From a virus, in the IMG/VR virus record IMGVR_UViG_3300036760_000568, positions 1 through 27,300 of that record: a DNA stretch of 27,300 bases. One strand, written 5' to 3'. The notes beneath the pieces were generated by a model, which saw only the letters and a program-made list of their open reading frames with translations, was not told the DNA's origin and made no database searches. The translations under genes and the position numbers were made by a program. This document shows, piece after piece, positions 1,215 through 27,300 of this stretch; within the stretch, counting starts at the first letter, position 1; each line of letters starts with the position of its first letter.

Positions 1215-1495
1215 TGACGTTCACCGACCAGGCCAGTTACGACAACGTAGGCTTTGACCCCGTGATTACCGCCGTTGCCTGCCGGCGGCTCACTATTCGA
1301 GAACTAGCAACGAGCGGGACACCTGGAGCCTACAGCGTGGCAGCGCCACTCTCGAGCAACGCCGTCTTCCCGAAATATCCGGCGGAAAGTACGACGTTCG
1401 AGGCCGCGCCAGGCACGATGTTCGACGCGGGCGTGACGGTGGGTTACATCCAAGCTTCAGCGGGAACTATAGTTTTCTCGCGCATCCACGAATGA
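1214..1495 (+). CDS. Hypothetical small structural-type protein
   Basis: A 93-residue protein whose ATG shares base 1214 with the preceding stop and whose stop overlaps the next ATG as ATGA (1492-1495), so it is coupled on both sides. The sequence is beta-prone (DPVITAVACRRLTIREL near the start, VGYIQASAGTIVFSRIHE at the end) with one cysteine. No family is recognised. The small size, composition and tight coupling with 834-1214 and 1492-3681 suggest the three act together, perhaps as a fibre or decoration module. Confidence 0.7.
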   Translation: MTFTDQASYDNVGFDPVITAVACRRLTIRELATSGTPGAYSVAAPLSSNAVFPKYPAESTTFEAAPGTMFDAGVTVGYIQASAGTIVFSRIHE

Positions 1496-3681
1496 TCTAC
1501 GCAAACAACCCCGCGCTACAAGAGCTTCTGAAGCTGGGCGCAGCCGATTCTCGATTACAGGAAGCCAATAGTTTTGAGTTTTCGGATGTGGCTTTTGACG
1601 TGGCGGTGGCTGACGTTTCCAATCAGCACGGATATTTCAATGAGGAAGAAACGCGCACCCGCGCCGCCTACCGGCTGCTAACCCGGAAGCGGTCTGTGCC
1701 GCCAGTAGTAGGGGAGCTACCCGCGCCGATAGTAACCCCGCCATTCTGGAGACAAGAGAGAGTTTGGCGCTGGCTGCAAATAGCTTGGGCGATTGCGATT
1801 CTTGCCGCGCTGATTCTGATTGCCGCACACCCCGCGCACGCGCAGAGCTTTCGTGACCCGCACTACAGGTTGTTTTCCCAACCAGCAGCGCCTGACAGTC
1901 TGATTGTCCAATTCAAGAACGCAGGTTCCCTACTCGCCACACGCCCTGCCGGGCTCATTGTCTTCGATTGCGGCGCGAATATGAGCTGTTCGTTTTCTGG
2001 TTCCACCTTCTCACTCACGGCTGGAGCTGGTGGAGCTGTAGCGTGGTCAGGAATCAGCGCACCTACAGCCAACCTGAGCCTTGCTCACGCGGCATGGACA
2101 ACGACATTTACTTGGAACGCCGCGACGGGCGCTGGCGTGGACCTGTTCAATTTGGCGGACACGCTCAACAACACCGGTACCGGGCATCTTTTCAAAGTGA
2201 ATTTGGCGAGCGGCAGCGCCATGAAGCCAGTGCAGTTCTCGGTGAACGGGAACGGCGTGGAGATGAGCAACGCCGGGTTGCTAGCTGGGTTGGGCACGGG
2301 CGGGATCAACGCAACGCAGTACAAGGGCGGGACAGCGGCGGGGGTAGGAACCTGCACGAATCAGGCGGTTACGGCCACGGTGGATGCCGCGGCGCCCACC
2401 TGTACCACGATTACTTCGGCCTACACTAGTGGCACCTTCCCCGCAACCGCGCACAATCTCCTCTCCGCCAGCCACACGGATACTACAGTTACATCGGCGG
2501 TGCGCGGGAGCATCATTTACGCCAATCTAACTCCCGCATGGACGGCGCTCGGCGTGCAAACGGCTAACAAATACCCGAAGTGGGATGGGACAGACCTTGT
2601 AGCTTCCACGGGAGCGGCTTCCGGTGTGGGTACGCCAACGGTTTGCACTAACCAAGCAGTTACCGGATTTACGTTGAACGCCGATGCCGCGCCGACGAGC
2701 ACCTGCACTACGTTCACGCTGGCCTCCGCGCAGTTCGCCAATCAGGGCACCACGACAACGCTACTTCATGGAAATGGGGCTGGGAATCCTTCATGGGCGG
2801 CAGCCAGCCTCACCGCCGATGTCAGCGGGATTCTACCCACGGCCAATGGCGGAACGGGGATTGCGTTCTTTACCGCTGCGGGGCCAACCGTAGCGCGTGT
2901 TTACACCTTCCCCGACGCGGCGGCGACCGTTCTGACCAGCAACGCCGCTGTCACCATCGCGCAAGGCGGCACGGGCACGGGGAGCACGCTGACCGGGCTG
3001 GTGCGCGGCAGTGCCTCGGCCATGACTGCGGCGGAACTCTCCGGCGATGTAACCACCAACGGCTCGAACGCCGTCACGCTGGTATCGACGGTGCTGAAAG
3101 ATTCCAGCACGCACACCCTCACCAACAAAACTCTGGATGTGGAAGGCACCGGCAACAGCGTCACTACCGTCTCGAAGATTTGGCTGGAAGCGGCGGCCTG
3201 CCAGAATGCCACCGCCACGCTGATGTGGGACACGCCCCCCAGCAACCCCGCCGTGGCCGCCTGCATTACCGGCACCAACACGCAGAAGGGCGTGGCCGAC
3301 TTTGCGGATGGCGCGAACTCTCTTTCCATGCAGCGCACCCTAGCCCTGCCCTCGGACTTCACGGGCGCGGTGGACGTGAAATTCAAGTGGCTGACCACGG
3401 CCACCACCGGCGACGTGGTGTGGCAGATTGCCACCATCTGCGTGGCTGACGCGGAGACCGACGACCCCGCGTTCAATACTGCCTCGACGGTGACGGATAC
3501 CGCCAAGGGCACCGCCAACCAGACCAACGACGCCAGCGTCACCGGCATCACCATGACCGGCTGCGCCGCCGGAGAAGCGTGGCATATCAAGGTGCTGCGC
3601 GACCCGGCGCACGCTTCGGATACGCTGGCGGCCACCGCGCGGCTGCTCGGCGTCGAACTGACTGTGCGGAGGGCCCAGTGA
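1492..3681 (+). CDS. Tail-fibre-like protein with internal membrane anchor/signal sequence
   Basis: A 729-residue protein. Residues 1-90 are polar, lack cysteine and end in an Arg-rich stretch. A hydrophobic segment follows (AWAIAILAALILIAAHPAHA, about residues 99-118), ending in a signal-peptidase-like AHA|QS site, so the remainder could be released or displayed outside the inner membrane. The rest resembles phage fibre shafts: two repeats of the type C-T-N-Q-A-V...A-P-T-x-C-T-T, GGTG turns (LPTANGGTGI, IAQGGTGTG), and a C-terminal beta domain of roughly 140 residues from about residue 585, of the kind found at fibre tips and thought to bind sugars. The ten cysteines form five neighbouring pairs. 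It overlaps its neighbours as ATGA upstream and GTGA downstream. Fibre homology is inferred from repeats; the export signal is unusual for a virion fibre. Confidence 0.75.
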   Translation: MIYANNPALQELLKLGAADSRLQEANSFEFSDVAFDVAVADVSNQHGYFNEEETRTRAAYRLLTRKRSVPPVVGELPAPIVTPPFWRQERVWRWLQIAWAIAILAALILIAAHPAHAQSFRDPHYRLFSQPAAPDSLIVQFKNAGSLLATRPAGLIVFDCGANMSCSFSGSTFSLTAGAGGAVAWSGISAPTANLSLAHAAWTTTFTWNAATGAGVDLFNLADTLNNTGTGHLFKVNLASGSAMKPVQFSVNGNGVEMSNAGLLAGLGTGGINATQYKGGTAAGVGTCTNQAVTATVDAAAPTCTTITSAYTSGTFPATAHNLLSASHTDTTVTSAVRGSIIYANLTPAWTALGVQTANKYPKWDGTDLVASTGAASGVGTPTVCTNQAVTGFTLNADAAPTSTCTTFTLASAQFANQGTTTTLLHGNGAGNPSWAAASLTADVSGILPTANGGTGIAFFTAAGPTVARVYTFPDAAATVLTSNAAVTIAQGGTGTGSTLTGLVRGSASAMTAAELSGDVTTNGSNAVTLVSTVLKDSSTHTLTNKTLDVEGTGNSVTTVSKIWLEAAACQNATATLMWDTPPSNPAVAACITGTNTQKGVADFADGANSLSMQRTLALPSDFTGAVDVKFKWLTTATTGDVVWQIATICVADAETDDPAFNTASTVTDTAKGTANQTNDASVTGITMTGCAAGEAWHIKVLRDPAHASDTLAATARLLGVELTVRRAQ
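2341..2718 (+). repeat. Two cysteine-paired fibre repeats within the 1492-3681 gene
   Basis: Copy one (2341-2415) encodes GVGTCTNQAV...AAPTCTTIT. Copy two (2623-2718) encodes GVGTPTVCTNQAV...DAAPTSTCTTFT. Both have a Cys before TNQAVT and a second Cys after an A-P-T turn, typical of collagen-like or beta shaft repeats in phage and bacterial fibre proteins. Each copy is followed by a spacer with further beta segments. Confidence 0.6.
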
Positions 3682-4406
3682 TCCCGAGGCGTCGGGAGCG
3701 CCCTTACAAGGCGCTGGCGATAACCGTGGCGGTAATTCTGGCCGCCCTCCCCGTCTTAGCGACCACGCTGTTTTCAGATGATTTTAACCGCGCCGACAAC
3801 GACCTGCTGGGCGGCAACTGGGTGGAACGCGGCCCCTCTGTAGACTTCGATATCGTTACCGGCCGCGTGCAGGTGATGGCCTACGCTACGTCTCTGATAG
3901 GTGTCGCCTACAACCCCGCTGGAATTAGCAGCGCCGATTACACGGTGCAGGCCATTGTGAATCCCGCTACAGGGGATACCTTGACGGGAGTTTGTGGGCG
4001 TCGCGTAAATTTTAGTACCGCTGATTCAGACGGCTACATGGCTTTTATCCACGACACTGCAAACTCTCTCTTTCTTTATAAGCGTGTCAGCGGGACGTGG
4101 ACGGAGCTAGGCTCTTTCGCCGTCACTATCACCGCAGGAACCGATTACACGGTGAAGTTGTCCATGCAAGGTACGACCATCAAGGCATTCCTCGATGGAG
4201 TAGAGCGAATTTCAGTGACGGACAGTTCCTTGTCTGCCGCAGGCGACGCCGGTCTTTGCATCAATGGTGGAGCTGAAAACACAGGGATGCGTTGGGACGA
4301 TTTTCTCGTGGAGGATTTCGGCGCGCCCGCCACACCCCGGAAGCGTGCGGCGGTCGTGTTTGCAAAGGCTCATCTCCATCAGCCAAACAGGGAGGGAATA
4401 AAATGA
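3678..4406 (+). CDS. Secreted lectin-like (LamG/concanavalin-type) protein with signal peptide
   Basis: A start at GTG 3678 is preferred to upstream ATGs because it overlaps the previous stop as GTGA and begins a textbook Sec signal peptide: MIPRRRERPYK, then hydrophobic ALAITVAVILAALPVLA, then a likely cut near residues 28-31. The mature part begins with DDFNRAD...LGGNW, a signature of concanavalin/LamG-like jelly-roll modules that bind carbohydrate. It continues with the alternating beta strands of that fold (DYTVKLSMQGTTIKAFLDG and WDDFLVEDFG). It has only two cysteines (GVCG and GLCI). The 242-residue length suits one jelly roll. Its role may be binding of host surface glycans, as fibre partner or exported protein. 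The C-terminus is basic, and the next small ORF overlaps it by ATGA. Confidence 0.7.
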   Translation: MIPRRRERPYKALAITVAVILAALPVLATTLFSDDFNRADNDLLGGNWVERGPSVDFDIVTGRVQVMAYATSLIGVAYNPAGISSADYTVQAIVNPATGDTLTGVCGRRVNFSTADSDGYMAFIHDTANSLFLYKRVSGTWTELGSFAVTITAGTDYTVKLSMQGTTIKAFLDGVERISVTDSSLSAAGDAGLCINGGAENTGMRWDDFLVEDFGAPATPRKRAAVVFAKAHLHQPNREGIK

Positions 4407-4518
4407 AAAACAGTCTTTCGAAAATCATTCCGCCAACGCAGCGACCGCCGCGCAAATGACTACGGCCATCGCCAAGGCGCGGAAAGAAGTGGACACGCTG
4501 GGAGTGCCGAAGAAATAA
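4403..4518 (+). CDS. Small ORF in two overlapping frames; possible frameshift
   Basis: ATG 4403, well placed after GGAGGG (4391-4396), opens an 18-codon frame that stops at 4459. A second frame with ATG 4456 runs to TAA 4516-4518, encoding MTTAIAKARKEVDTLGVPKK. The second frame stays open upstream to 4402 with plausible coding sequence (EKQSFENHSANAATAAQ). A single-base deletion right after the ATG, or a -1 shift at the AAAA run near 4422-4427, would join it to the ribosome-loaded start and give a peptide of about 38-39 residues. TAA overlaps the small-terminase ATG (TAATG). Function is unknown; it may be a coupling leader for the terminase pair. Confidence 0.35.
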
Positions 4519-4853
4519 TGGCTGGCAAACGCAAGAAGGTAAACGAGAAGCAACTCTTTGAACTCGCGCGCATCGGCTGTACGGATAAAGAGATCGCGGC
4601 GGTCATGGACATTTCAGACCGCACAGTGCGAGACAACTTTTCCGCTATTCTTATAAAAGGACGCGAACAAGGGAAACAGCGTCTCCGGCGTTTGCAGTGG
4701 AAGTCCGCTGAAAAGGGCAATGTCACGATGCTGATATGGCTTGGGAAGCAACTCCTCGACCAAAAGGACAAGAACGAGCACACCGGCAAAGATGGTGGCG
4801 CGATGCGAATGATCCTTGAAACTGTAGGGAGCCATGGAAACAGCCGCGCCTGA
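4518..4853 (+). CDS. terS: Phage terminase small subunit (putative)
   Basis: A 111-residue protein immediately before, and overlapping by 20 bases, the large terminase. Residues about 10-40 form a helix-turn-helix (ELARIGCTDKEIAAVMDISD, then RTVRDNF), as used by small terminases to bind pac or cos DNA. The second half contains a Lys/Arg- and Trp-containing helix and the segment GNVTMLIWLGKQLLDQKDK, which recurs in many phage small terminase-like proteins and would form the oligomerisation part. It would select viral DNA and regulate the large subunit in the cytoplasm. The call combines HTH, length and position. Confidence 0.75.
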   Translation: MAGKRKKVNEKQLFELARIGCTDKEIAAVMDISDRTVRDNFSAILIKGREQGKQRLRRLQWKSAEKGNVTMLIWLGKQLLDQKDKNEHTGKDGGAMRMILETVGSHGNSRA

Positions 4854-6396
4854 CATCACCTTGCGCGCGCAGTTCTGGCCGAAGCAAGCGGAGTTTGACC
4901 GCATGGTGGAAACTACACCCGCTACGATTCTTGGATATGGAGGGAGCCGCGGGGGAGCCAAGAGCGACGCTGGCCGCAAGATCATGCTCAAGCGCAGATT
5001 CAGCTATCCGGGAACCTGGGGCTTAGTCATGCGGCGGCTGTGGAGTGAAGTCCGTCGGAATCACATTGAACCCATGTTTCGTGATTGGCCGGCACTAAGA
5101 GATTTCTGGAGTGAACAACAACGCACGCTGTTTTTCCCCAATGCTTCTCAGCTTGTCTTTCGATCCGGCGAACATAGCCGCGACATTTACGAAATGCAGG
5201 GCGACGAATACTATGATGTGTTCATTGACCAAGCGGAGCAGTTCAGCGAAGCAGAACTTGTTTTTCTAAAGACAATCAACCGCTGGCCCATGACTCCAGA
5301 GGCCAACTGCAAGCTCCTACAGACGTTTAATCCCGGCAACATCGGCCATGCGTACCTGAAGCGCGTGTTCTACGACAAGAAGTACAAGGAGCGCGAACGT
5401 CCCGAAGATTACGCTTTCCTGCAAGCCTATGGCTGGGACAACGCAGCCTGGGTGTTGCCCGCGCTGGAAGCGGATGGCAAGACGGTAGATGAGTATTTCG
5501 CGTGGCCGGAAGAGAAGCGATTCGAGTATTTCATCTCCCGCAGCCAAACAGGAAGGGAACTCGACGCTCTACCGCAAGCGATGAGGATTGGTCACCTATT
5601 AGGGCGCTGGGATCAGTTTGCGGGTCAATACTTCGACATTCTGAATCCGGATAAGCACTTTCGTTCTCGCGCTCACATGGGGTTAAAGCCCTGGCATCGT
5701 CGCTGGATAGGGATTGACTGGGGATTCGCGCACAACTCTGCGGCCCACTGGAACGCGCAAACCGAAGAAAGCAAGACCATGACCTACAGAGAGTTCGTCA
5801 GGAATGGCTTGGGGGCTCGCGCGCTCGCACAGGAAATCAGCGACCGCTGCGGTACAGGGGAGCAACGAGAAAAGATTGACACCATCTTCCTAAGTCCCGA
5901 CGCTTTTGCCAAGCGAACCAGCGAAAACACCATCGCCGAGCAGATGAACGAAGTGTTCATTGCCAACGGCTTGCCAGCCTGCACGCCCGCCGATGATGAC
6001 CGTGTAGGCGGCTGGCACTTGATGTATGAAATGCTGCGCTGCGAGGAGTGGCTGATTGCCGATGAGTGTACGGAGTTGATCTCCTGCCTGCCGATGCTCA
6101 CGCGACAGCCGATGGACAAGAATCCGAATGACTGCCTAAAGTTTGAGGGGGACGACCCGGCGGATTCAGCACGTTACGCCCTCAAGTCTTTCTTGGGCAC
6201 GCGCCAGATGCCATTTGAGGAGCGTGTGGCAGAGAAGGTGGAGACTTTCGCCCAGACGCGCGGGCAGACGATGGACACCCTCGAACCCACGTCGCGCGCC
6301 ATGCTGATTCGCCAAGCCATGCGGCTGGAGAAGAAGAATAACCGGGGCATTCGGTATCCATTCGGGCGGCGGTTTAGGCCGGGAGCGATGAACTGA
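4834..6396 (+). CDS. terL: Phage terminase large subunit (packaging ATPase-nuclease)
   Basis: The 520-residue motor cuts concatemeric DNA and drives it into the prohead through the portal. The ATPase domain shows a Walker A-type loop, GYGGSRGGAKS (residues 34-44), and a Walker B-like strand YYDVFIDQAEQF (about 126-137). At the position usually held by Glu there is Gln133, with Glu135 two residues on. The C-terminal RNase H-like nuclease is marked by WIGIDWGFAHNS (D-x-G motif, about 286-300), a middle acidic motif FLSPDAF and a final DDPADSARYALKSF. The length is typical. ATG 4834 follows GGGAG, and translation is coupled to the small subunit. The gene ends by sharing one base with the next ATG. 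Confidence 0.93.
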   Translation: METAAPDITLRAQFWPKQAEFDRMVETTPATILGYGGSRGGAKSDAGRKIMLKRRFSYPGTWGLVMRRLWSEVRRNHIEPMFRDWPALRDFWSEQQRTLFFPNASQLVFRSGEHSRDIYEMQGDEYYDVFIDQAEQFSEAELVFLKTINRWPMTPEANCKLLQTFNPGNIGHAYLKRVFYDKKYKERERPEDYAFLQAYGWDNAAWVLPALEADGKTVDEYFAWPEEKRFEYFISRSQTGRELDALPQAMRIGHLLGRWDQFAGQYFDILNPDKHFRSRAHMGLKPWHRRWIGIDWGFAHNSAAHWNAQTEESKTMTYREFVRNGLGARALAQEISDRCGTGEQREKIDTIFLSPDAFAKRTSENTIAEQMNEVFIANGLPACTPADDDRVGGWHLMYEMLRCEEWLIADECTELISCLPMLTRQPMDKNPNDCLKFEGDDPADSARYALKSFLGTRQMPFEERVAEKVETFAQTRGQTMDTLEPTSRAMLIRQAMRLEKKNNRGIRYPFGRRFRPGAMN

Positions 6397-6849: not shown

Positions 6850-6892
6850 GAGTTTCTAAGCACGCCCCACATCGGGGAGGAGAGAAAGCAAC

Positions 6893-8467
6893 ATGAGAAC
6901 AGTACGAACGATTCTGGCAGTTCTGTTGGCGCTGGCAATTACGGCTCCTGTCCCTATGCTCGCGCAACAGCAATCGAGGGTTGCCGGCGTGTTTGTGGCC
7001 GCCAACTACAACACTTGGCAGGCCACAGTTGTGACTGGCAACGCAGCTACTGGCGGTGGCGCGGTCATCGTGGTTTCGCCGGCTACAGCTATGGCCGATG
7101 GGCGGGTGCTGAGCCAATTCAATGTCAATGCGCCCGTCACCATCAATGATGCGGCATCGGAAACCTTTACCCCTACCGCCGTTGCTTTCGGCACTTGTCC
7201 GACAGACGGTTCTGTATCTGGCGGATTGGGACCGTGCGCGACGCTTACCGGCACGATTGCCAACTCGCACGGTCGCGGCGCGCAAGTAAAATCGGGTACC
7301 GCGGGCCTGCAAGAAGCCCTCAACGACGCTACCGCGATTGGTGGCGGTGAGGTTATCGTGGATCGTGGATGGTCTGGCACAACCGCGAACATCACATCAG
7401 CGGCACCTTTCTCAAACGTGTCAGTGACGGACAAGCGCAACGCGGCGCCAGTCTACTACTATGCACAGCCGACTACACTGACGGCTTTAGCCACGCCAGC
7501 CACGCGGTCTGCGGCTGCTGGCGCAACGCAGGTCATAGACGGTACGGCAGTGGGCACTTTCGCCAATGCCGTGTTGTTCGTCTGCGTGACCTACGTAGAT
7601 ATGCTGGGCGGGGAAAGCCCTTGCTCAGCGTCGTTCAGCTACACGCCGGCCGGCAGTTTGGCTACTAACTGGGCATCTCCAGCGGCCTCTACGGGAGCCA
7701 TCGGCTGGCGAGCCTACGCGGGCATCACGGGCACGAGCACGCAATATCAGCTTCCCATTACAGCCTCCAACTGCACACTAACCACGCTGGAAAGCATTTT
7801 CCCCGCGTGCGCTATCGGTTCTTCGGCGATATTTACAACTCCGCTGACCACCAGCTCTCTGGCTCCCGGATATGTGGTCAACGTCTACCGACCGAATACG
7901 CAAAGTCATACGACGTTCGGCTATCAAGCAAGCGCCTCGGTTGCGGCTGGTGCCTTCCAATCGAACTATGGGCCGTTCATCGCCACCGGGAACATTGCTT
8001 CCGGTCAATTGGGCGTTCTGGGCACGGTGCCTTTGCCTTTGGGCTACCTCAACCAGATTGGGAAGTCGGTCAAGATCAGCGGGAAGATTGCCTCTACCGC
8101 GGTCAGCACAGCCGTACAGGGCTATCAGGTATCTCTTGGCCCTACGTTCACAACCGGCACGCCGACTGTGCTTTGCCAGTTCACCAATACCGTGACCTTG
8201 GCGGCGGTGGCTTATGGCACGTCGTTTGAATGTACGCTGACCACCAACGCCATCGGCGCGAGCGGCACGATCATGCCTAATGGCTTTGCCATCACCCAAG
8301 CAGCGGCTGGCGGCGCCACGGCGCTGTCGATCGCTGTGGATACCGGGACGGCAGCCATCACCAACAAACTCGACACGCAGAACACCATCTACATCGTGCT
8401 GACGACCGGAACGGCTGCCACCAACCCAGCACAGTTGCTGGACCTGCACATCGTACCGATGAACTGA
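6893..8467 (+). CDS. Secreted beta-rich tail-fibre-like protein with signal peptide and eight paired cysteines
   Basis: A 524-residue product starting at ATG 6893 after GGGGAGGAG. Residues 1-25 are a clear Sec signal peptide (MRTVRTILAVLLALAITAP, then MLAQ|QQ). The mature protein is Thr/Ala/Gly/Val-rich and almost entirely beta-predicted. A mid-region fibronectin-like module contains VCVTYVDMLGGESPCS followed by GWRAYAG. The C-terminal region (KSVKISGKIASTAV, later QLLDLHIVPMN) has the look of fibre-tip or receptor-binding domains in phages. The eight cysteines form four adjacent pairs (TCP/GPC, FVC/SPC, SNC/PAC, VLC/FEC), as expected for disulfides in the periplasm or outside the cell. Location between terminase and portal genes argues it belongs to the phage. 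Function as fibre, decoy or adhesin is unproven. Confidence 0.75.
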   Translation: MRTVRTILAVLLALAITAPVPMLAQQQSRVAGVFVAANYNTWQATVVTGNAATGGGAVIVVSPATAMADGRVLSQFNVNAPVTINDAASETFTPTAVAFGTCPTDGSVSGGLGPCATLTGTIANSHGRGAQVKSGTAGLQEALNDATAIGGGEVIVDRGWSGTTANITSAAPFSNVSVTDKRNAAPVYYYAQPTTLTALATPATRSAAAGATQVIDGTAVGTFANAVLFVCVTYVDMLGGESPCSASFSYTPAGSLATNWASPAASTGAIGWRAYAGITGTSTQYQLPITASNCTLTTLESIFPACAIGSSAIFTTPLTTSSLAPGYVVNVYRPNTQSHTTFGYQASASVAAGAFQSNYGPFIATGNIASGQLGVLGTVPLPLGYLNQIGKSVKISGKIASTAVSTAVQGYQVSLGPTFTTGTPTVLCQFTNTVTLAAVAYGTSFECTLTTNAIGASGTIMPNGFAITQAAAGGATALSIAVDTGTAAITNKLDTQNTIYIVLTTGTAATNPAQLLDLHIVPMN

Positions 8468-8646: not shown

Positions 8647-8822
8647 TTTTGTCCGAACGTGAACTCCGCGAACGCGGGCGGCAAATCCTTATCCGTCAAT
8701 TGCGCGCCCGCGCGCCGTTTCTCACAGGAAGGAAGCTCCGCACACTGGCACGTGGCATCGAGCGCGAGCAGTGGATGGAGCGCGATAAGGAGGCTGTTCA
8801 CCGTCTGACGCATGGCCGCTGA
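8643..8822 (+). CDS. Small basic hypothetical protein (59 aa)
   Basis: TTG 8643 overlaps the preceding stop (TTGA) and has AGGAG about 8 bases upstream. The frame ends at TGA 8820-8822, overlapping the portal ATG by 11 bases. The product is highly charged and helical (LSERELRERGRQILIRQLRA, then REQWMERDKEAVHRL), with Arg-rich surfaces that could bind nucleic acid or the portal. No family is recognised. Coupling on both sides supports expression. Confidence 0.55.
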   Translation: MILSERELRERGRQILIRQLRARAPFLTGRKLRTLARGIEREQWMERDKEAVHRLTHGR

Positions 8823-11223
8823 CGTTCTGCCAATCAACACTCAGGAAACCCCGCCAGAAACCACGCAAGAGAATAGCCCTCAAGAACTCTCCGAAGATTT
8901 GCAGAAGGAACTCCGCGCTCTCTGGCAGAAGTGCGTTACCGATGGGATCACCGCCGACCGACAGGAAGTGCGCGATGTTTGGCAGGCTCACTTCTACTGG
9001 CGCGGGCTGCAATACACCTGGTGGAGCGAGAAAGAAGGGCGGCTTAAGCTCCTCAGCCAAGCCACAGACCGCGACATCGACAATCCCGATGAGATGCCGC
9101 GTTTCCAGTATGTCACCAACATTTACCAGTCACGGGGACTAGGCTACATCGCGGCTGTAGCCGGGGCCGCGCCGCGAATCCGCTTCTTCCCCGATGATGC
9201 GGACAACCCCGACGATCTCGAAACCGCGCAAGCAGACACCAAACTGGCGAAAGCGATTGAACGCTGGAATCCCACCAAGAAACTGCTACAGGAAGAGGCA
9301 CACCTGTTCTGGATGGACGGTGTTGTAGGAGCTTACGTTCGCCGCGTGGCTGATGGGGAAAAGTTTGGCACGGAATCTGTCGCCAGCCTGAGTTCCCAAG
9401 AAACCGAACTGGCTCCCGAAACGATGCGGTGCGCGAAATGCGGCTGGGAAGGGCCGGCGCAGGAAGTAACTCTGCCAGTGCCGTGCCCTCAATGCGGACA
9501 GCCGCTCACGGAAGAGAATCTAGCCCCAGCCCAGAACGCGAATATCCCTGCGGAAGGAGGCGAAGAGGAGTTTGCCAAGACCCGCGTCGTGATTACTCCT
9601 GTAGGAGCATTGAACCTCAAGCGCCCGCAGTGGTGCAAGGAGCAAGGAGACTTCCACTACCTGGTTTACGAGCGGGAAGTGCATTTCTCGAAAGCTCGCG
9701 CCGCCTTCCCCAAGAAAGCCAAAGAGATCAAGGGCGGGATTCAAGGCGGAGGAGTAGCGGCTTACCGTCGGATTGCGAGACTTTCTACCGCGCAAGGCAC
9801 GACTTTACTCTCACAGACTGGAGACGCCCTAGCGTCGCTCGTCACGATCTCCACGGTCTGGTTCCGCAAAGACGCGTTCTACATGCTGGACGATGAGACG
9901 AAGCGCGACGAGCTGATCGCGGCCTTCCCGGACGGCTGCAAGGTGATTTTCGTTGGCGATACCTATTGCGAATCCGCGCCGGAAAGCATGGACGATGCCT
10001 GGGTGATTGAGCACGCTTACCCTGGGGACGGCCAGCACCGGCCGGCCGTAGGTTCGAGCATGATTTCCGTGCAGGACCGCTTCAACACGGAAAGCAACAT
10101 CGAAACGGAAACTTACGAATACGGGCAGCCCATCACCTACCGCGCGTCCGACACTTTCGATCCCGACGCCTCGAAAGAACAAATCTCCGAGCCTGGGTCG
10201 GAGGTTCAAGTCGCGCTGCGCGCGAATGAAAACATCAGTAACCGGATTATGACCACTTCTCCGGCTTCGGTTTCTCCCAGCATGACTCAGCACATGCAGG
10301 AATTGCGCGGGCCGCTGTCGGACGAAATGAGCGGCGTATATCCAGCCCTGGCAGGCGCGGACACCGACCAAAAGACTTTAGGCGGACAGGCCATGCAGCG
10401 CGACCAGGCGATGGGGCGCATGGGGATTTCCTACTCACGGCTGAAACAGTTCCACGCGAATGTGATGACTTTAGCCTGCCGCGCGCTGCGTAGTGAAGGA
10501 ACAGGCAAGATTTCAACTCCTGTACTGGCTAAGAGCGGAGAGTTTGAATCTGAATCCGTTGATGTGACGGCACTGGAAGGGGAATCGCAAGCCTACCCAG
10601 AGGGAGACGAGAATTTCCCTGAAGGCTGGGCGCAGAAGCGCGCGGTAGCCATGCAGGTTGCAGACTCCCCGCAGGGGCAGATGCTCCTGCAAGACCCGGA
10701 CAACCAACAGGTATTTTTGGATCTCCTGGGCATTCCTGAATTGGTGAGCCCTGACGCGAGTTCGCGCAAGAAACAGCTTCGAGAAATTAAGGAATTGAAA
10801 CCGCAGCCGCAAGCTGAAGCGGCAATCCCTAATGGACAGCCACCCGTGCAAAATCCGCTCGCGGAAATGCTGATTGACCCTGAGTTCGACAACCATCCGG
10901 CGGAGTTAGCGACTTGTGTTGCTTGGCTGAATGGAGAAGAAGGACAGCGCGCGAAGAAGGATGAGCCGGAATGGTTTACCACAGTGCGCGCTCATGCTTT
11001 GGAACATAAGCAACTGATTGAGCCACCTGTAGATGAAAAGAAGCCCATTAGCGTCGCTGTCGCCACCGACAAGATGGTGCCGGAAGCGCAGGCTCAAATT
11101 CTCGAAAAGATTGATGTGCACGTGCAGCCGCAGGATTTCGCGGCAGCCGCGGCGCTGGAAAAGGCAAAGAAGCCGCAACCGATTTTGTCCACTCGCGGAA
11201 ACGTGACCGCGCCCGGCACCTAG
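8812..11223 (+). CDS. Portal protein (P22-like size) with inserted zinc ribbon
   Basis: An 803-residue protein, in the size range of podoviral P22-type portals. It would form the dodecameric ring at one head vertex, docking the terminase and tail. Supporting features are position directly after terminase and before scaffold and capsid; an N-terminal YWRGLQYTWW/NIYQSRGLGYIAA region typical of portals; a conserved central stretch SVQDRFNTESNIETETYEYG with following T-rich loops; and a long C-terminal helical region with Pro/Gln/Ala-rich end as in barrel domains. Unusual is a four-cysteine ribbon, C207-x2-C210 and C225-x2-C228 (RCAKCGW...CPQCGQ), inserted before the core. ATG 8812 overlaps the upstream ORF and has GGAGG about 16 bases upstream. 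Confidence 0.85.
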   Translation: MAADVLPINTQETPPETTQENSPQELSEDLQKELRALWQKCVTDGITADRQEVRDVWQAHFYWRGLQYTWWSEKEGRLKLLSQATDRDIDNPDEMPRFQYVTNIYQSRGLGYIAAVAGAAPRIRFFPDDADNPDDLETAQADTKLAKAIERWNPTKKLLQEEAHLFWMDGVVGAYVRRVADGEKFGTESVASLSSQETELAPETMRCAKCGWEGPAQEVTLPVPCPQCGQPLTEENLAPAQNANIPAEGGEEEFAKTRVVITPVGALNLKRPQWCKEQGDFHYLVYEREVHFSKARAAFPKKAKEIKGGIQGGGVAAYRRIARLSTAQGTTLLSQTGDALASLVTISTVWFRKDAFYMLDDETKRDELIAAFPDGCKVIFVGDTYCESAPESMDDAWVIEHAYPGDGQHRPAVGSSMISVQDRFNTESNIETETYEYGQPITYRASDTFDPDASKEQISEPGSEVQVALRANENISNRIMTTSPASVSPSMTQHMQELRGPLSDEMSGVYPALAGADTDQKTLGGQAMQRDQAMGRMGISYSRLKQFHANVMTLACRALRSEGTGKISTPVLAKSGEFESESVDVTALEGESQAYPEGDENFPEGWAQKRAVAMQVADSPQGQMLLQDPDNQQVFLDLLGIPELVSPDASSRKKQLREIKELKPQPQAEAAIPNGQPPVQNPLAEMLIDPEFDNHPAELATCVAWLNGEEGQRAKKDEPEWFTTVRAHALEHKQLIEPPVDEKKPISVAVATDKMVPEAQAQILEKIDVHVQPQDFAAAAALEKAKKPQPILSTRGNVTAPGT

Positions 11224-12564: not shown

Positions 12565-13836
12565 ATGCCGAGCACACCAACAGCACCGAGTACAGCACAA
12601 AGCATCGCCGTGCAACTGGAGAAAGTGCGTCCGGTTGTGAAGAAGGCGTTCGAGACGGAAGACGTTTTGCTCGACTTCTTCAAGGAAAACGGAGATGTGG
12701 AAGTCATCGGCACGCGCGCCGTGCGCGCTCCGATTTACATTCGTCCCGGCGGTGCCGCGTCGCAAGGCACCGGCGACTTCGACGACAAGGGCCGCGGTTC
12801 CGGCAGTGTATGGGACTTTGCGACCGTTTCCACCATCGAGTTCCACTTCGCGTTTGAAGTGTCCAAACTCGCCGAATACGCCACGGACAGTAAGAGCAAA
12901 GCCGTGGAGAACGTAGCCACGGCGGAAGTTGCGAACGCGATGGAAAACTTCAAGGCGTTTCTCGACCGCCTGACCAACACGGCTGGTTCCGGCGTGCTGG
13001 ACACCATCGGGGCCATCGCTACCAGCACGACTTTCACGGTGACGAACGCCGACATGTTTTTCTACAACCAACTCATTCAGGTCTACAGCTCCACGCTGGC
13101 GACCAACCGCGGCCTCTGCAAAGTGGTGGCGGTTGACCCGCTGGCAAAGACCATTACCGTGGACGCTGCGCCGGGCGGAACCATTGCTGGCGATGTGCTG
13201 GTGATCAACATCAATCAGGGCACTTCCGGCGCGAACCCGGTTTCGCTCCAGGGCTTGCTCTACACCCACGTGGATAGCGCGACGGGAAGTTGGCAAGGGC
13301 TGGCGCGTTCAAGCTACCCCGAAGCGTTGAAGACCCCTCACATCGCCGCAGCCGCCGCCGCGATTACGCCGGGCATGGTGCGGTTGCTCTTCTCGAAGAT
13401 ACGTCGCGTACTGGGCTCGAAGCAATTCGAGAAGGAAGAGTTGATCCCCTACATGAACGTGGACCAGGAAGCCGCGTGGGAGAACACCGGCTTGAACGTG
13501 TCCTCGATCATCATCAATCAAGTGGGCGGGAGCAACGCGCCCGAAGTGGGCAAGAAAAGTCCGCCGGCAACCATGATGGGCCGCAAAATCATGTCCAGCA
13601 TCCACGCCACACCGGGCCGCGTGGATATGGTCATGCCGAAACACTGGTGGAGAGCGGTGACGAAGGAGATTGACTTCTTCGAGGAAGGCGGCCAGACGGT
13701 GTTCCCGCTGTACGGAACTTCCGGCGGCTTGCTTTCCGGGTACATTTCGTACCTCGACACCGTGTTCCAGATCGGCGCGGACCTGCCACGTTTCGGCGGG
13801 TTCATCGACGGCGCGGCACAGCCGCCCGGGTACTAA
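12565..13836 (+). CDS. Major capsid protein (HK97-fold expected)
   Basis: A 423-residue protein following the scaffold and ending in a strong terminator. The N-arm (VRPVVKKAFETEDVLLDFF), a charged E-loop-like segment with Gly-rich RPGGAASQGTGDFDDKGRG, a long spine helix (KAVENVATAEVANAMENFKA) and a C-terminal P-domain-like half (RVDMVMPKHWWRAVTKEIDF) fit HK97-type coat proteins. Residues about 145-225 hold an inserted small beta domain (TFTVTNADMFFYNQLIQVYS, followed by VVAVDPLAKTITVD and GDVLVI), as in several podoviral coats with I-domains. The gene uses strongly biased codons (frequent GGC, CTG, AAG), suiting high expression. It would form the icosahedral shell. Confidence 0.82.
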   Translation: MPSTPTAPSTAQSIAVQLEKVRPVVKKAFETEDVLLDFFKENGDVEVIGTRAVRAPIYIRPGGAASQGTGDFDDKGRGSGSVWDFATVSTIEFHFAFEVSKLAEYATDSKSKAVENVATAEVANAMENFKAFLDRLTNTAGSGVLDTIGAIATSTTFTVTNADMFFYNQLIQVYSSTLATNRGLCKVVAVDPLAKTITVDAAPGGTIAGDVLVININQGTSGANPVSLQGLLYTHVDSATGSWQGLARSSYPEALKTPHIAAAAAAITPGMVRLLFSKIRRVLGSKQFEKEELIPYMNVDQEAAWENTGLNVSSIIINQVGGSNAPEVGKKSPPATMMGRKIMSSIHATPGRVDMVMPKHWWRAVTKEIDFFEEGGQTVFPLYGTSGGLLSGYISYLDTVFQIGADLPRFGGFIDGAAQPPGY

Positions 13837-23913: not shown

Positions 23914-26274
23914 ATGACAACAGCCACACAGATCACAGACCCCGAACAATTCACAGACGCGCAGTTGAGTGACGGCACGACGCTGCGCTTCAAAGGGCAA
24001 CTTGGCCCGGATGAAGTGCGCGCGAAAGTAAGAGCCTACCGCGAAAAGCAAAATCCGCCAAAACCCACCACCGCAGAGAATCCGATTGAGCGAAAAGGGA
24101 AGACAAGCACGCTGGGCACGGTAGCGCGCGAGGGGATGCTGGGAATTGGCGCGGGCGTGGGACTACCTGAAACCACACATGCCTCTGACTTCTCTCTCCT
24201 GCCCGGCCTCAAGACGATGGTGACGCATCCCATCGAATCCACAAAGCTATTGGCGGGCGGGATCGTGCGCCCGATGGCTGAACGTCTCGCTAAAGGTACG
24301 AACCTCATCCAAGAGGGCGGCGCGCGAAACATCATTGAAGGTGGAGCGAATTTAGCGGCTGGAATCGTGCCGATTGTCGGGCCTGCTGCTTATGGCGCGG
24401 GAGAAGAATTAGGCGAAGGAATCAAGACGCGCGACCCGGCGGCGATTGCTCATGGCGGCGGGGCCGCGTTGGGAACATTGGCGACGCTCGGACTTGGCAC
24501 AAAGCGCGGCGGGGCACTGACGGAGAAAGCTATCAGCACAGTAGGCGGCAGGGCGGAAACGGCGCTTCGGGCGGTAGGACGCGCGCCTTTGAAAGTCGCT
24601 GAGAAAGTTGGTTTGCGCGTTCCCGAAGCTCCAAAGGCTTTGCGGCAGGCTATTCAGCCTGGCATCAACATTCCTCGCGCTGGAGAATCCATTGACATTG
24701 CCGGACCGCGCCTCCAGCAAATCGCAAAATCCGAAGGCATTGACCTTACCCGCGTCACAAAAGAAAAAGGCGAAGTCACCGGAAAGTTTTTGGATCTCGT
24801 CAAGCGCGGGAAGCAGCAGATTCACGCCGCCATCGAGCAGCGGCTAGGCCCGGTGGACCAGCTCTCGCCCGACACGTCAGCGATTGCCGATGCGATGGAG
24901 AAGAGCATCAGCGGACGAACGCTGCGGCAACGGCCTCAAGTAGCCCAAGCCATTCGTGACCGTGCAGCCACCTATCGCGGGAATACCAGTTTGCGCGAGA
25001 TCGAGAACGCGATTGAGGACGCCAATAAGGAACTCCGCGGCTACTACAAACAGCCCGTTTCTGGCGAGAGTCCGATTTCTCCTCAGATGGACGTGACTAT
25101 CGCGGAAGTCAAAGCTCTCCGCAAAATGCTTGATGAAAAAGTGGAAAGCCTGAGTGGTTCCGGCGTGAAAGAACTGAAACGCGAGTATGGGGCGTTGCGC
25201 GACGTGGAACGCGCGACAGCTCGACAGCACGCAGTCCAAACCCGCGTGAAAGGTGCAGGACTTTGGGAAGGGCTTGCGGCGCTGCACGCTGCGGGAGATT
25301 TCATCAGCGGGAACGCGCTCGGAACGCTGAAAGGTATTGGGACGCTTGCGGTAGGGCGGCGGCTGCAACTGGTACGCAATCCAGACTTCCTGATTGAACA
25401 GGCGTTTCAAGGGAATCGGCCATTTGTAGCCGCGCCGCCGATTACACAAGTCAATGCACCGCAAATCTATGCCGATCAAATTCTTGGGCAGATGGGTCGG
25501 CGCGCTACAAATGAAAGAATGCTTCCGCCACGGACGAGCGGCCCCGTAGAAGGACCAGGGCCGATACCTGTAACAGCACAGCCGCCAGCACGTCCCATGC
25601 TCCCCAGTAGGAATGTGCGGGGCCTGTTGCCTTCTTCCGTGGGTTCCCTTTATTGGCCACCGACGCTTGACCGTCCCCTTTCTCCAGCGCCAGGGCATCC
25701 TACTTCTCTTGGCGCAGCGGTGAGTCTTCCAGTATCTCTGAAAAAGCGACCGTCCTTGCCAGAACCGCGTGTAGCCCCTCCGCCCGAAGCGCCCGCCCCC
25801 ATGCCGCCCCCAGTTAAAGCGCCACTGGCCGCGCGCACACTCAGGAGCACACCGCGTTCTGAATCTCTCTCGACCTACAACAGCCTGCCCGAAGAAATCC
25901 GCCAGGCGATTGACGCACAAGCCGCAGAGCACACACACCAGCCACAATCTCTCCGCGAAGCCAGAGAGCAGCAACTTGCGAAATTCGGTGGCAAGGGCAG
26001 TCCTTTGAAAGAACGCATGGCGCGAGAAGCGGCGCGCGATGAAGGGCTACCAATTTTAGGTGAGACGCTTGGCACTGGACTTAGCAAAACGCAAGCAGAC
26101 ATTCGCGCGAACATCGAACGACTCAATAAGCAGTACATCGAACTCGGTAAGCGCGAATTTAGGATGCGCGGCGGAAATCTGGAAGGGAAGCGCGCCATCC
26201 GCGAAAAACGCGAATGGATTAGTACAACGCTCGAAGGCTTGAGAGAGCAACTGAAGGAACCGGAGCAAAAATAA
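23914..26274 (+). CDS. Large internal/ejection-type virion protein
   Basis: A 786-residue protein. A short N-terminal domain (FTDAQLSDGTTLRFKGQLGP, then EVRAKVRAYREK) of a type common at the start of phage internal proteins is followed by Gly/Ala-rich hydrophobic stretches (MLGIGAGVGLPE; NLAAGIVPIVGPAAYGAGEE; AAALGTLATLGLG-like region near 180-195). These could insert in membranes during DNA ejection. The middle (about 245-430) is helical and charged. Residues about 500-660 are Pro-rich and probably extended. The end is a coiled coil (RANIERLNKQYIELGKREF; STTLEGLREQLKE). Tape-measure-like length is modest and no long-tail genes exist, so an ejection-channel role is more likely. Start ATG 23914 has no clear ribosome site. 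Confidence 0.6.
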   Translation: MTTATQITDPEQFTDAQLSDGTTLRFKGQLGPDEVRAKVRAYREKQNPPKPTTAENPIERKGKTSTLGTVAREGMLGIGAGVGLPETTHASDFSLLPGLKTMVTHPIESTKLLAGGIVRPMAERLAKGTNLIQEGGARNIIEGGANLAAGIVPIVGPAAYGAGEELGEGIKTRDPAAIAHGGGAALGTLATLGLGTKRGGALTEKAISTVGGRAETALRAVGRAPLKVAEKVGLRVPEAPKALRQAIQPGINIPRAGESIDIAGPRLQQIAKSEGIDLTRVTKEKGEVTGKFLDLVKRGKQQIHAAIEQRLGPVDQLSPDTSAIADAMEKSISGRTLRQRPQVAQAIRDRAATYRGNTSLREIENAIEDANKELRGYYKQPVSGESPISPQMDVTIAEVKALRKMLDEKVESLSGSGVKELKREYGALRDVERATARQHAVQTRVKGAGLWEGLAALHAAGDFISGNALGTLKGIGTLAVGRRLQLVRNPDFLIEQAFQGNRPFVAAPPITQVNAPQIYADQILGQMGRRATNERMLPPRTSGPVEGPGPIPVTAQPPARPMLPSRNVRGLLPSSVGSLYWPPTLDRPLSPAPGHPTSLGAAVSLPVSLKKRPSLPEPRVAPPPEAPAPMPPPVKAPLAARTLRSTPRSESLSTYNSLPEEIRQAIDAQAAEHTHQPQSLREAREQQLAKFGGKGSPLKERMAREAARDEGLPILGETLGTGLSKTQADIRANIERLNKQYIELGKREFRMRGGNLEGKRAIREKREWISTTLEGLREQLKEPEQK

Positions 26275-27300
26275 TGCTCAAACGACTGCTTTTGATTTTC
26301 GCGTTTCTGTTCGCGGCGAGCGCAGCTCACGCTCAGGGCGTTGCTGTTAGCGGAATCGTGCTTTCCGGCTCGGGCCGTCCGGTAGGCGGGGCGACGATTC
26401 GCATCTGCACTTCGGCTTGGGCGGGGCCAGCGACGATTTCCTGCACGCCGCTCGCGTCCATCTATTCCGACTTGGCTCTGACGGTGCCGGTCAGCCAAAG
26501 TCCAACTCCTTACACGACGGATGGACTGGGGAATTATTATTTCTTCATCGCGGCGGGAAACTACTGGAAGCAAACCAGCGGGCCCGGCTTGACCGCGAGC
26601 CAGGAAATGATCACGCCCGCGTCGTCCAGCCTCGTCGGCTCGTTCATCAATGTGCCGCAAACCGGAACCTCTGCCCCGGTCCAGGTCGGCAGCGTGTGGT
26701 ATCCCGGCACGGCCAGCGGGACGGCCACAGCGCCTACAGGGACACCGGGAAGCTCGGTCACGCTGAGTGGTGGGTCTATCGCGGACGGAACGTACTATTT
26801 CAAGGTGACGTATTTCAACTTTTTCGGGGAGACAACGGGTAGTCCGACCAAGACCGTGACAGTTGCCGGTGGCGGCGGGTCGGCAAAGGTTTACATCGCG
26901 CATAACGACTTCGACTTTGTGACAGGCTCTTATGGCTTCATCGTTTACGCCTCGAATGACAACGTGACGTTTTATCTTCAGACTCCGAGCGCGGTTGCCA
27001 ACGATTTTCTACTGACGAATGCAAACGCAGGAGCGCCCGTTGGGAAGACAGGCCACTACGTCAAACTGAGTTCTTTTGGAGCGCGGTTTACCTCACTCAC
27101 TTTCAGTGGCACAACGATACCGACATCCAACACCGCGACTATCTCTGCACAGCAAGTAGCGATGAACGCCACGCGGAGAGCGTCTGACTACAACCCACAA
27201 GGCGCTTTGTTTCTTGGCGCGCTAGACGCAGCAGGGTCTAACGGCCATTCTATCGGTACGCCGCTCATCATGCACAAGGGCGACCGCATCATTGGCGTAG
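26274..27300 (+). CDS. Secreted tailspike/fibre-like protein, N-terminal part (runs off window)
   Basis: ATG 26274 shares a base with the previous stop (TAATG), and the frame stays open for 342 codons to the window edge. Residues 1-21 are a Sec signal peptide (MLKRLLLIFAFLFAASAAHA|Q). The mature N-terminus GVAVSGIVLSGSGRPVGGAT resembles carboxypeptidase-regulatory-like beta domains, with one cysteine pair (RICTS...SCTPL). A fibronectin-like module follows (YYFKVTYFNFFGETTGS...GFIVYAS), related in pattern to the module in the 6893-8467 product. Later GALFLGALDAAGSNGHSIGT looks like the entry to a spike or beta-helix domain, which lies beyond the window. It is probably a host-surface-binding protein; the signal peptide is atypical for a virion spike. 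Confidence 0.7.
   Translation, partial: MLKRLLLIFAFLFAASAAHAQGVAVSGIVLSGSGRPVGGATIRICTSAWAGPATISCTPLASIYSDLALTVPVSQSPTPYTTDGLGNYYFFIAAGNYWKQTSGPGLTASQEMITPASSSLVGSFINVPQTGTSAPVQVGSVWYPGTASGTATAPTGTPGSSVTLSGGSIADGTYYFKVTYFNFFGETTGSPTKTVTVAGGGGSAKVYIAHNDFDFVTGSYGFIVYASNDNVTFYLQTPSAVANDFLLTNANAGAPVGKTGHYVKLSSFGARFTSLTFSGTTIPTSNTATISAQQVAMNATRRASDYNPQGALFLGALDAAGSNGHSIGTPLIMHKGDRIIGV

Follow-up and report, generated by a model that had tools for sequence, protein, structure and literature searches.

A set of spike- or fibre-like proteins that, as read from sequence, is very probably exported through the Sec pathway and disulfide-bonded is encoded by the phage of the window and by its relatives; the window is the whole stretch analysed here, a linear IMG/VR record of 27.3 kb that forms a tailed-phage structural segment. 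The accepted view is that tailed phages fold their fibres and spikes, and attach them, in the cytoplasm, which is reducing. In the mechanism proposed here, a cleavable Sec signal peptide would take proteins of the spike and fibre type, still unfolded, across the inner membrane; once rid of the signal they would fold, and several disulfide bonds would form in the oxidising compartment of the host. Heads and tails would assemble in the cytoplasm as usual. At lysis, the mature spikes may meet the particles and attach by N-terminal virion-binding domains, which signal cleavage would turn into the N-terminus of the protein. For life in soil, the benefit could be an adhesion organelle hardened by disulfides. 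The explanation as a whole, from Sec export and oxidation to the docking of spikes on particles at lysis, stands at an even chance of being right.

The window genes that bear on the argument are the following.

1492–3681, + strand: P0002, a fibre-like protein of 729 aa with 10 Cys and an internal hydrophobic, signal-like segment (about 1768–1845)
3678–4406, + strand: P0003, 242 aa; predicted signal peptide at residues 1–28, 2 Cys, a concanavalin-like region, and a PHROG assignment as tail/virion structural protein
4518–4853, + strand: terminase small subunit (TerS)
4834–6396, + strand: terminase large subunit (TerL), without a signal; control for Cys parity and for the signal scorer
6893–8467, + strand: P0001, the focal gene, 524 aa; Sec signal peptide, N-domain, middle domain and C-terminal beta domain; 8 Cys
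8812–11223, + strand: probable portal protein, by position and conservation beside TerL; without a signal; scorer control
12565–13836, + strand: major capsid protein
26274–27300, + strand: P0004, cut by the contig end; predicted signal peptide at residues 1–20, 2 visible Cys
26334–26630, + strand: N-domain of P0004, resembling the head-binding domain of podovirus tailspikes in profile comparison

The focal gene and its setting

P0001 is read from an ATG at 6893 to a stop ending at 8467 and lies between TerL and the portal. The original prediction had described it as a protein with a signal peptide and eight cysteines in four neighbouring pairs, set in a packaging and head cluster, and both the protein and the setting (TerS, TerL, portal and capsid) are borne out. 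The portal-like protein at 8812–11223 has no match in Pfam or PHROG. The parts of P0001 are listed below.

6872–6892, + strand: ribosome-binding site GGGGAGGAGAG and spacer, read directly upstream of the ATG
6893–6964, + strand: signal peptide by the signal scorer, residues 1–24 (ending in PMLA, followed by QQQ); a signal is kept in 59/78 family members
6971–7495, + strand: family-defining N-domain, residues 27–201 (AlphaFold pLDDT 91.4), where signal-less relatives begin
7196–7237, + strand: Cys102 and Cys115, a predicted disulfide; Cys115 has another partner in relatives
7583–7624, + strand: Cys231 and Cys244, a predicted disulfide; both columns are Cys in 25/36
7772–7810, + strand: Cys294 and Cys306, a predicted disulfide; both columns are Cys in 32/36
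8174–8233, + strand: Cys428 and Cys447, a predicted disulfide; the Cys447 column has one of two mutually exclusive partners in kin

Because a strong ribosome-binding site precedes the ATG, the signal peptide is not an artefact of start-codon choice. Its sequence, MRTVRTILAVLLALAITAPVPMLA followed by QQQ, has the traits of a Sec (SPase I) signal, namely a charged n-region, a hydrophobic h-region and small residues at −1 and −3, except that −3 is Met; the cleavage site was placed by judgement, and the home-made scorer favoured A15 instead. A scan of P0001 for a lipobox found none, and at 524 aa the protein also lacks the small size of Llp and Cor.

AlphaFold models both the whole protein (pLDDT 86.8) and its N-domain with confidence. 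Except for the signal helix and a small number of short helices, the modules of P0001 are rich in beta structure. A fold search of the N-domain against solved structures in the PDB gave no match, and PDB fold searches with P0001 gave nothing convincing. In the BFVD, the whole chain has a weak likeness (low TM) to uncultured phage proteins, a neck appendage and a pectate lyase. P0001 matches no fibre or spike family in Pfam, PHROGs or NCBIfam; its probable fibre-like identity is drawn from fold type, context and kin, not from a family match.

The other three genes had been predicted to share an export signal and an even cysteine count, which describes P0003 and the truncated P0004 correctly. 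For P0002 the 10 cysteines stand, but the supposed N-terminal export signal does not, as the hydrophobic segment is internal (about residues 93–118, behind some 92 residues) and GTG 1696, the sole later start close by, is preceded by a poor ribosome-binding site at best. P0002 thus fits the exported set least well. Its ATG shares bases with the stop codon of the gene before it. Against phage records it yields a short C-terminal match only, and none of P0002, P0003 and P0004, taken as whole proteins, has a phmmer homologue in the kin loci.

Signal peptide and cysteines across the family

P0001 alone, used as a degenerate-pattern query, retrieved no relatives, and neither did the portal or P0004; a kin spike used as query matched only its own record. 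A search with TerL yielded two distant contigs, L002 and L003 (TerL identity 37–38%), in which the protein directly behind TerL, of 580 and 572 aa, respectively, has a signal and eight Cys and is 37 and 35% identical to P0001. The alignment of these two proteins with P0001 was used to search IMG/VR and gave 79 loci, many of them on contigs that are fragments. Aligned members are approximately 30–54% identical to P0001. In loci that include TerL, the family gene mostly follows it at a distance of 0–2.6 kb, and the portal comes next. A large group of uncultured phages thus conserves the P0001 family within its structural module; these phages are presumably of soil origin, as is generally the case for such IMG/VR contigs. 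Searches of cultured-phage records gave nothing for P0001, for two signal-less relatives or for two of the P0004 kin; the local matches of P0002, P0004 and the L007 protein are marginal. The family is absent from the descriptions in Pfam, PHROGs, NCBIfam and cultured-phage records; a Pfam match of one relative to coronavirus NSP10 was judged to be due to chance. In five loci (L047, L065, L067, L075 and L080), two or three members form a tandem array in which every copy has a signal peptide of its own, and the arrays end in very large members of 880–1400 aa with 16–34 Cys.

Of 81 dereplicated family sequences, 78 could be classed by signal state: 59 have a signal peptide and 19 have none. The calls were made with the home-made scorer, whose false positives on control proteins amount to 0/67 TerL, 0/67 portal and 1/50 capsid proteins and 1.4% of shuffled segments. 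The survey of related contigs suggested with the original prediction finds the combination of signal and fibre gene conserved across dozens of them. Besides P0001, 58 dereplicated homologues have a Sec-like signal, most with 4–14 Cys in the aligned mature core. Signal-less proteins begin 2–11 residues before a fixed position in the domain, and the predicted mature ends of signal-bearing ones fall at a median of about 7. The signal peptide is thus a clean N-terminal add-on, since the start of signal-less proteins coincides with the mature start of their signal-bearing kin.

These starts, just past the cleavage site, argue against an improbable alternative, in which the hydrophobic N-terminus remains uncleaved and anchors in, or penetrates, a membrane, while the rest of the protein stays with the particle. 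The less than ideal site of P0001, with Met at −3, and the internal segment of P0002 would agree with an anchor. Across the kin, however, −1 is a small residue, nearly always Ala, and +1 is mostly Gln; moreover, covarying and even sets of cysteines point to an oxidising compartment. Gln follows the likely site in 40/59 signal-bearing members, a count in which the choice of site was weighted towards Gln, and might hint at the host group.

On supported branches of the family tree, signal state changes at least three times; the best tree has five such changes. The median number of Cys in the mature core is 8 in signal-bearing and 1 in signal-less members (P=3e-9, uncorrected for relatedness). The contrast persists in the N-domain alone (P=2e-7, likewise uncorrected), which removes the difference in length as its cause. 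TerL of the same phages has no such trend with signal state, the tendency being reversed, so the contrast does not reflect genome-wide cysteine use. Nearly all independent supported pairs go in the same direction or are tied, their number (n=3) leaving the sign test powerless. On this sequence evidence, related phages whose protein is without an export signal also lack those cysteines. As signal and cysteines come and go jointly inside a single gene family, they constitute a natural experiment.

The mature Cys count is even in 54/56 complete signal-bearing members, compared with 18/35 TerL proteins and 6/15 signal-less members. Mapped on the family tree, the count shows 26 changes and parity just two, which largely disposes of the objection that the sequences are related. 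Column analysis of 36 full-length members indicates which cysteines may be bonded. Cys occupies column 301 together with column 313 in 32/36. Cys at 459/460, present in 34/36, has a partner at 406 (19 members) or at 441 (14 members), never at both; Cys at 116/117, present in 36/36, has a partner at 107/108 (18) or at 68–71 (8), again never at both. In the 19 signal-less members, every tested column is free of Cys. Such alternation of partners is the pattern expected of disulfides rewired in evolution, and the paired, covarying cysteines tied to export have the character that disulfides would be expected to leave in sequence. Phage-encoded DsbA (PF01323) was found in 0/35 contigs; the bonds are therefore presumably formed by host enzymes.

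One window taken alone would be compatible with an artefact, in which hydrophobic N-termini and even cysteine counts came together by chance. The family-wide statistics and controls refute this reading at the level of the family: parity, partner switching and the TerL and scorer controls rule it out and leave it next to no probability.

Spike-like kin and the site of action

The domain behind the signal of P0004 is common to proteins in 17/50 kin contigs. All but one of these proteins have a signal, and nearly all have Cys in the domain; the single signal-less one is free of Cys throughout. As a single sequence P0004 has no Pfam or PHROG match. With the profile of its N-domain, the best solved relatives are tailspike head-binding domains (7EEQ, E=2.8e-4, which is modest, and 9VYG, 0.013), a suggestive likeness. 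One of the kin of P0004 (L102) contains the beta-helix domain PF13229. More generally, signal-bearing proteins of the kin include pectate-lyase and beta-helix bodies, a head-spike-fibre domain and virion-structural PHROGs. Among the unrelated genes that accompany the family in its loci, those with a signal encode proteins with 1.9 Cys per 100 aa versus 1.3 in signal-less ones, and the count is even in 37/41 versus 166/307, with a maximum of 42 Cys in one protein. A 2152-aa protein at L026:11901-18359, which has a signal peptide and 42 mature Cys, starts with a head-binding-like domain of the P0004 type. A signal together with an even Cys count may serve as a cheap marker for unannotated spike genes in viromes.

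Described tailspikes fold in the cytoplasm and are not known to carry a Sec signal. P0004 and its kin have a tentative likeness to podovirus tailspikes (P22 gp9 type; PDB 7EEQ, 9VYG) in the N-domain, resemble them further in the beta-helix and pectate-lyase bodies of the kin and in their place in the structural module, and differ from them in that the exported set has a signal and even Cys sets. The GTA/phage head spike fibre domain (NCBIfam NF048003) occurs in the exported kin protein from L093 (E 4.5e-8, just under the cut-off); it is not found in window proteins.

Where the exported proteins act is the point on which readings diverge. It is possible, and on the doubtful side, that they never join virions and cut or bind glycans outside the cell; acting free in this way, they would loosen exopolysaccharide for spread, or mask receptors on infected cells and debris. 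Beta-helix or pectate-lyase folds in several exported kin agree with such action, and there are precedents of two kinds. Pantoea WceF is a tailspike-fold depolymerase with an export signal; it is, however, a bacterial enzyme acting on biofilm glycan, and its signal is of the Tat type (PMC7949094). T5 Llp, a disulfide-containing protein exported by a phage, blocks the receptor (PMC9586334). The superinfection-exclusion lipoproteins Llp and Cor are thus phage-encoded and exported like the present set, but they are small and act from the periplasm, whereas the exported set consists of beta-rich proteins of 240–2150 aa, mostly in structural clusters (PMC9586334). Free action accords poorly with the place of the focal gene between terminase and portal, which is fixed in many phages, with the common start of signal-less versions, and with the head-binding-like domain that follows the signal in P0004 kin and that free enzymes would not need. 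The last of these leans towards attachment to the virion after export.

Docking at lysis is accordingly preferred to free action, although the step itself is evenly poised. The modest head-binding match concerns P0004, not P0001, whose N-domain has no match among solved structures, and this counts against docking. So does the coexistence of exported and signal-less spike-like genes in one phage: in L053, L041, L043 and L082 the focal-family member is signal-less, yet other large, signal-bearing, Cys-rich spike-like genes are present. Export thus seems to be decided gene by gene. As for the extracellular fibre and decoy system originally proposed, an exported, disulfide-bonded, spike-like set is upheld by sequence and family statistics. 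Of the functions put forward with it, receptor coating, modification of the surface glycan and attachment of fibres after lysis are conjectural, and a role as a decoy has no direct support.

Bacteria, too, can use such proteins. The MAT fibre proteins of Bdellovibrio are exported, phage-fibre-like and used as adhesins, but it is the predatory bacterium itself, rather than a phage, that encodes them, for use in invading its prey (PMC10769870). By analogy, lysogens might make the present proteins as surface adhesins, their place in the structural cluster being incidental. Such lysogenic conversion is very unlikely, since the place between terminase and portal is fixed, promoter- and terminator-like sites are not above chance, and the family was found on only one contig of a bacterial genome. 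That contig, of 37.7 kb, is phage-like and belongs to a Betaproteobacteria MAG; it is not treated as proof of host, and 0/368 other genomes of the class have the family.

The broader proposal, that a clade of tailed soil phages finishes its virions outside the cytoplasm, with spikes exported, oxidised, trimmed by SPase and docked at or after lysis, is tentative, its chances falling slightly short of even. If true, such split-compartment assembly would be a route not known for tailed phages, and soil phages whose spikes travel by Sec into an oxidising compartment would alter views of virion assembly and of phage-surface biology. A literature search of partial coverage turned up no account of tailed phages that export their fibres. 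At the start of the window, positions 231–416 encode a small zinc-ribbon-like protein with five Cys and an NrdR-like look.
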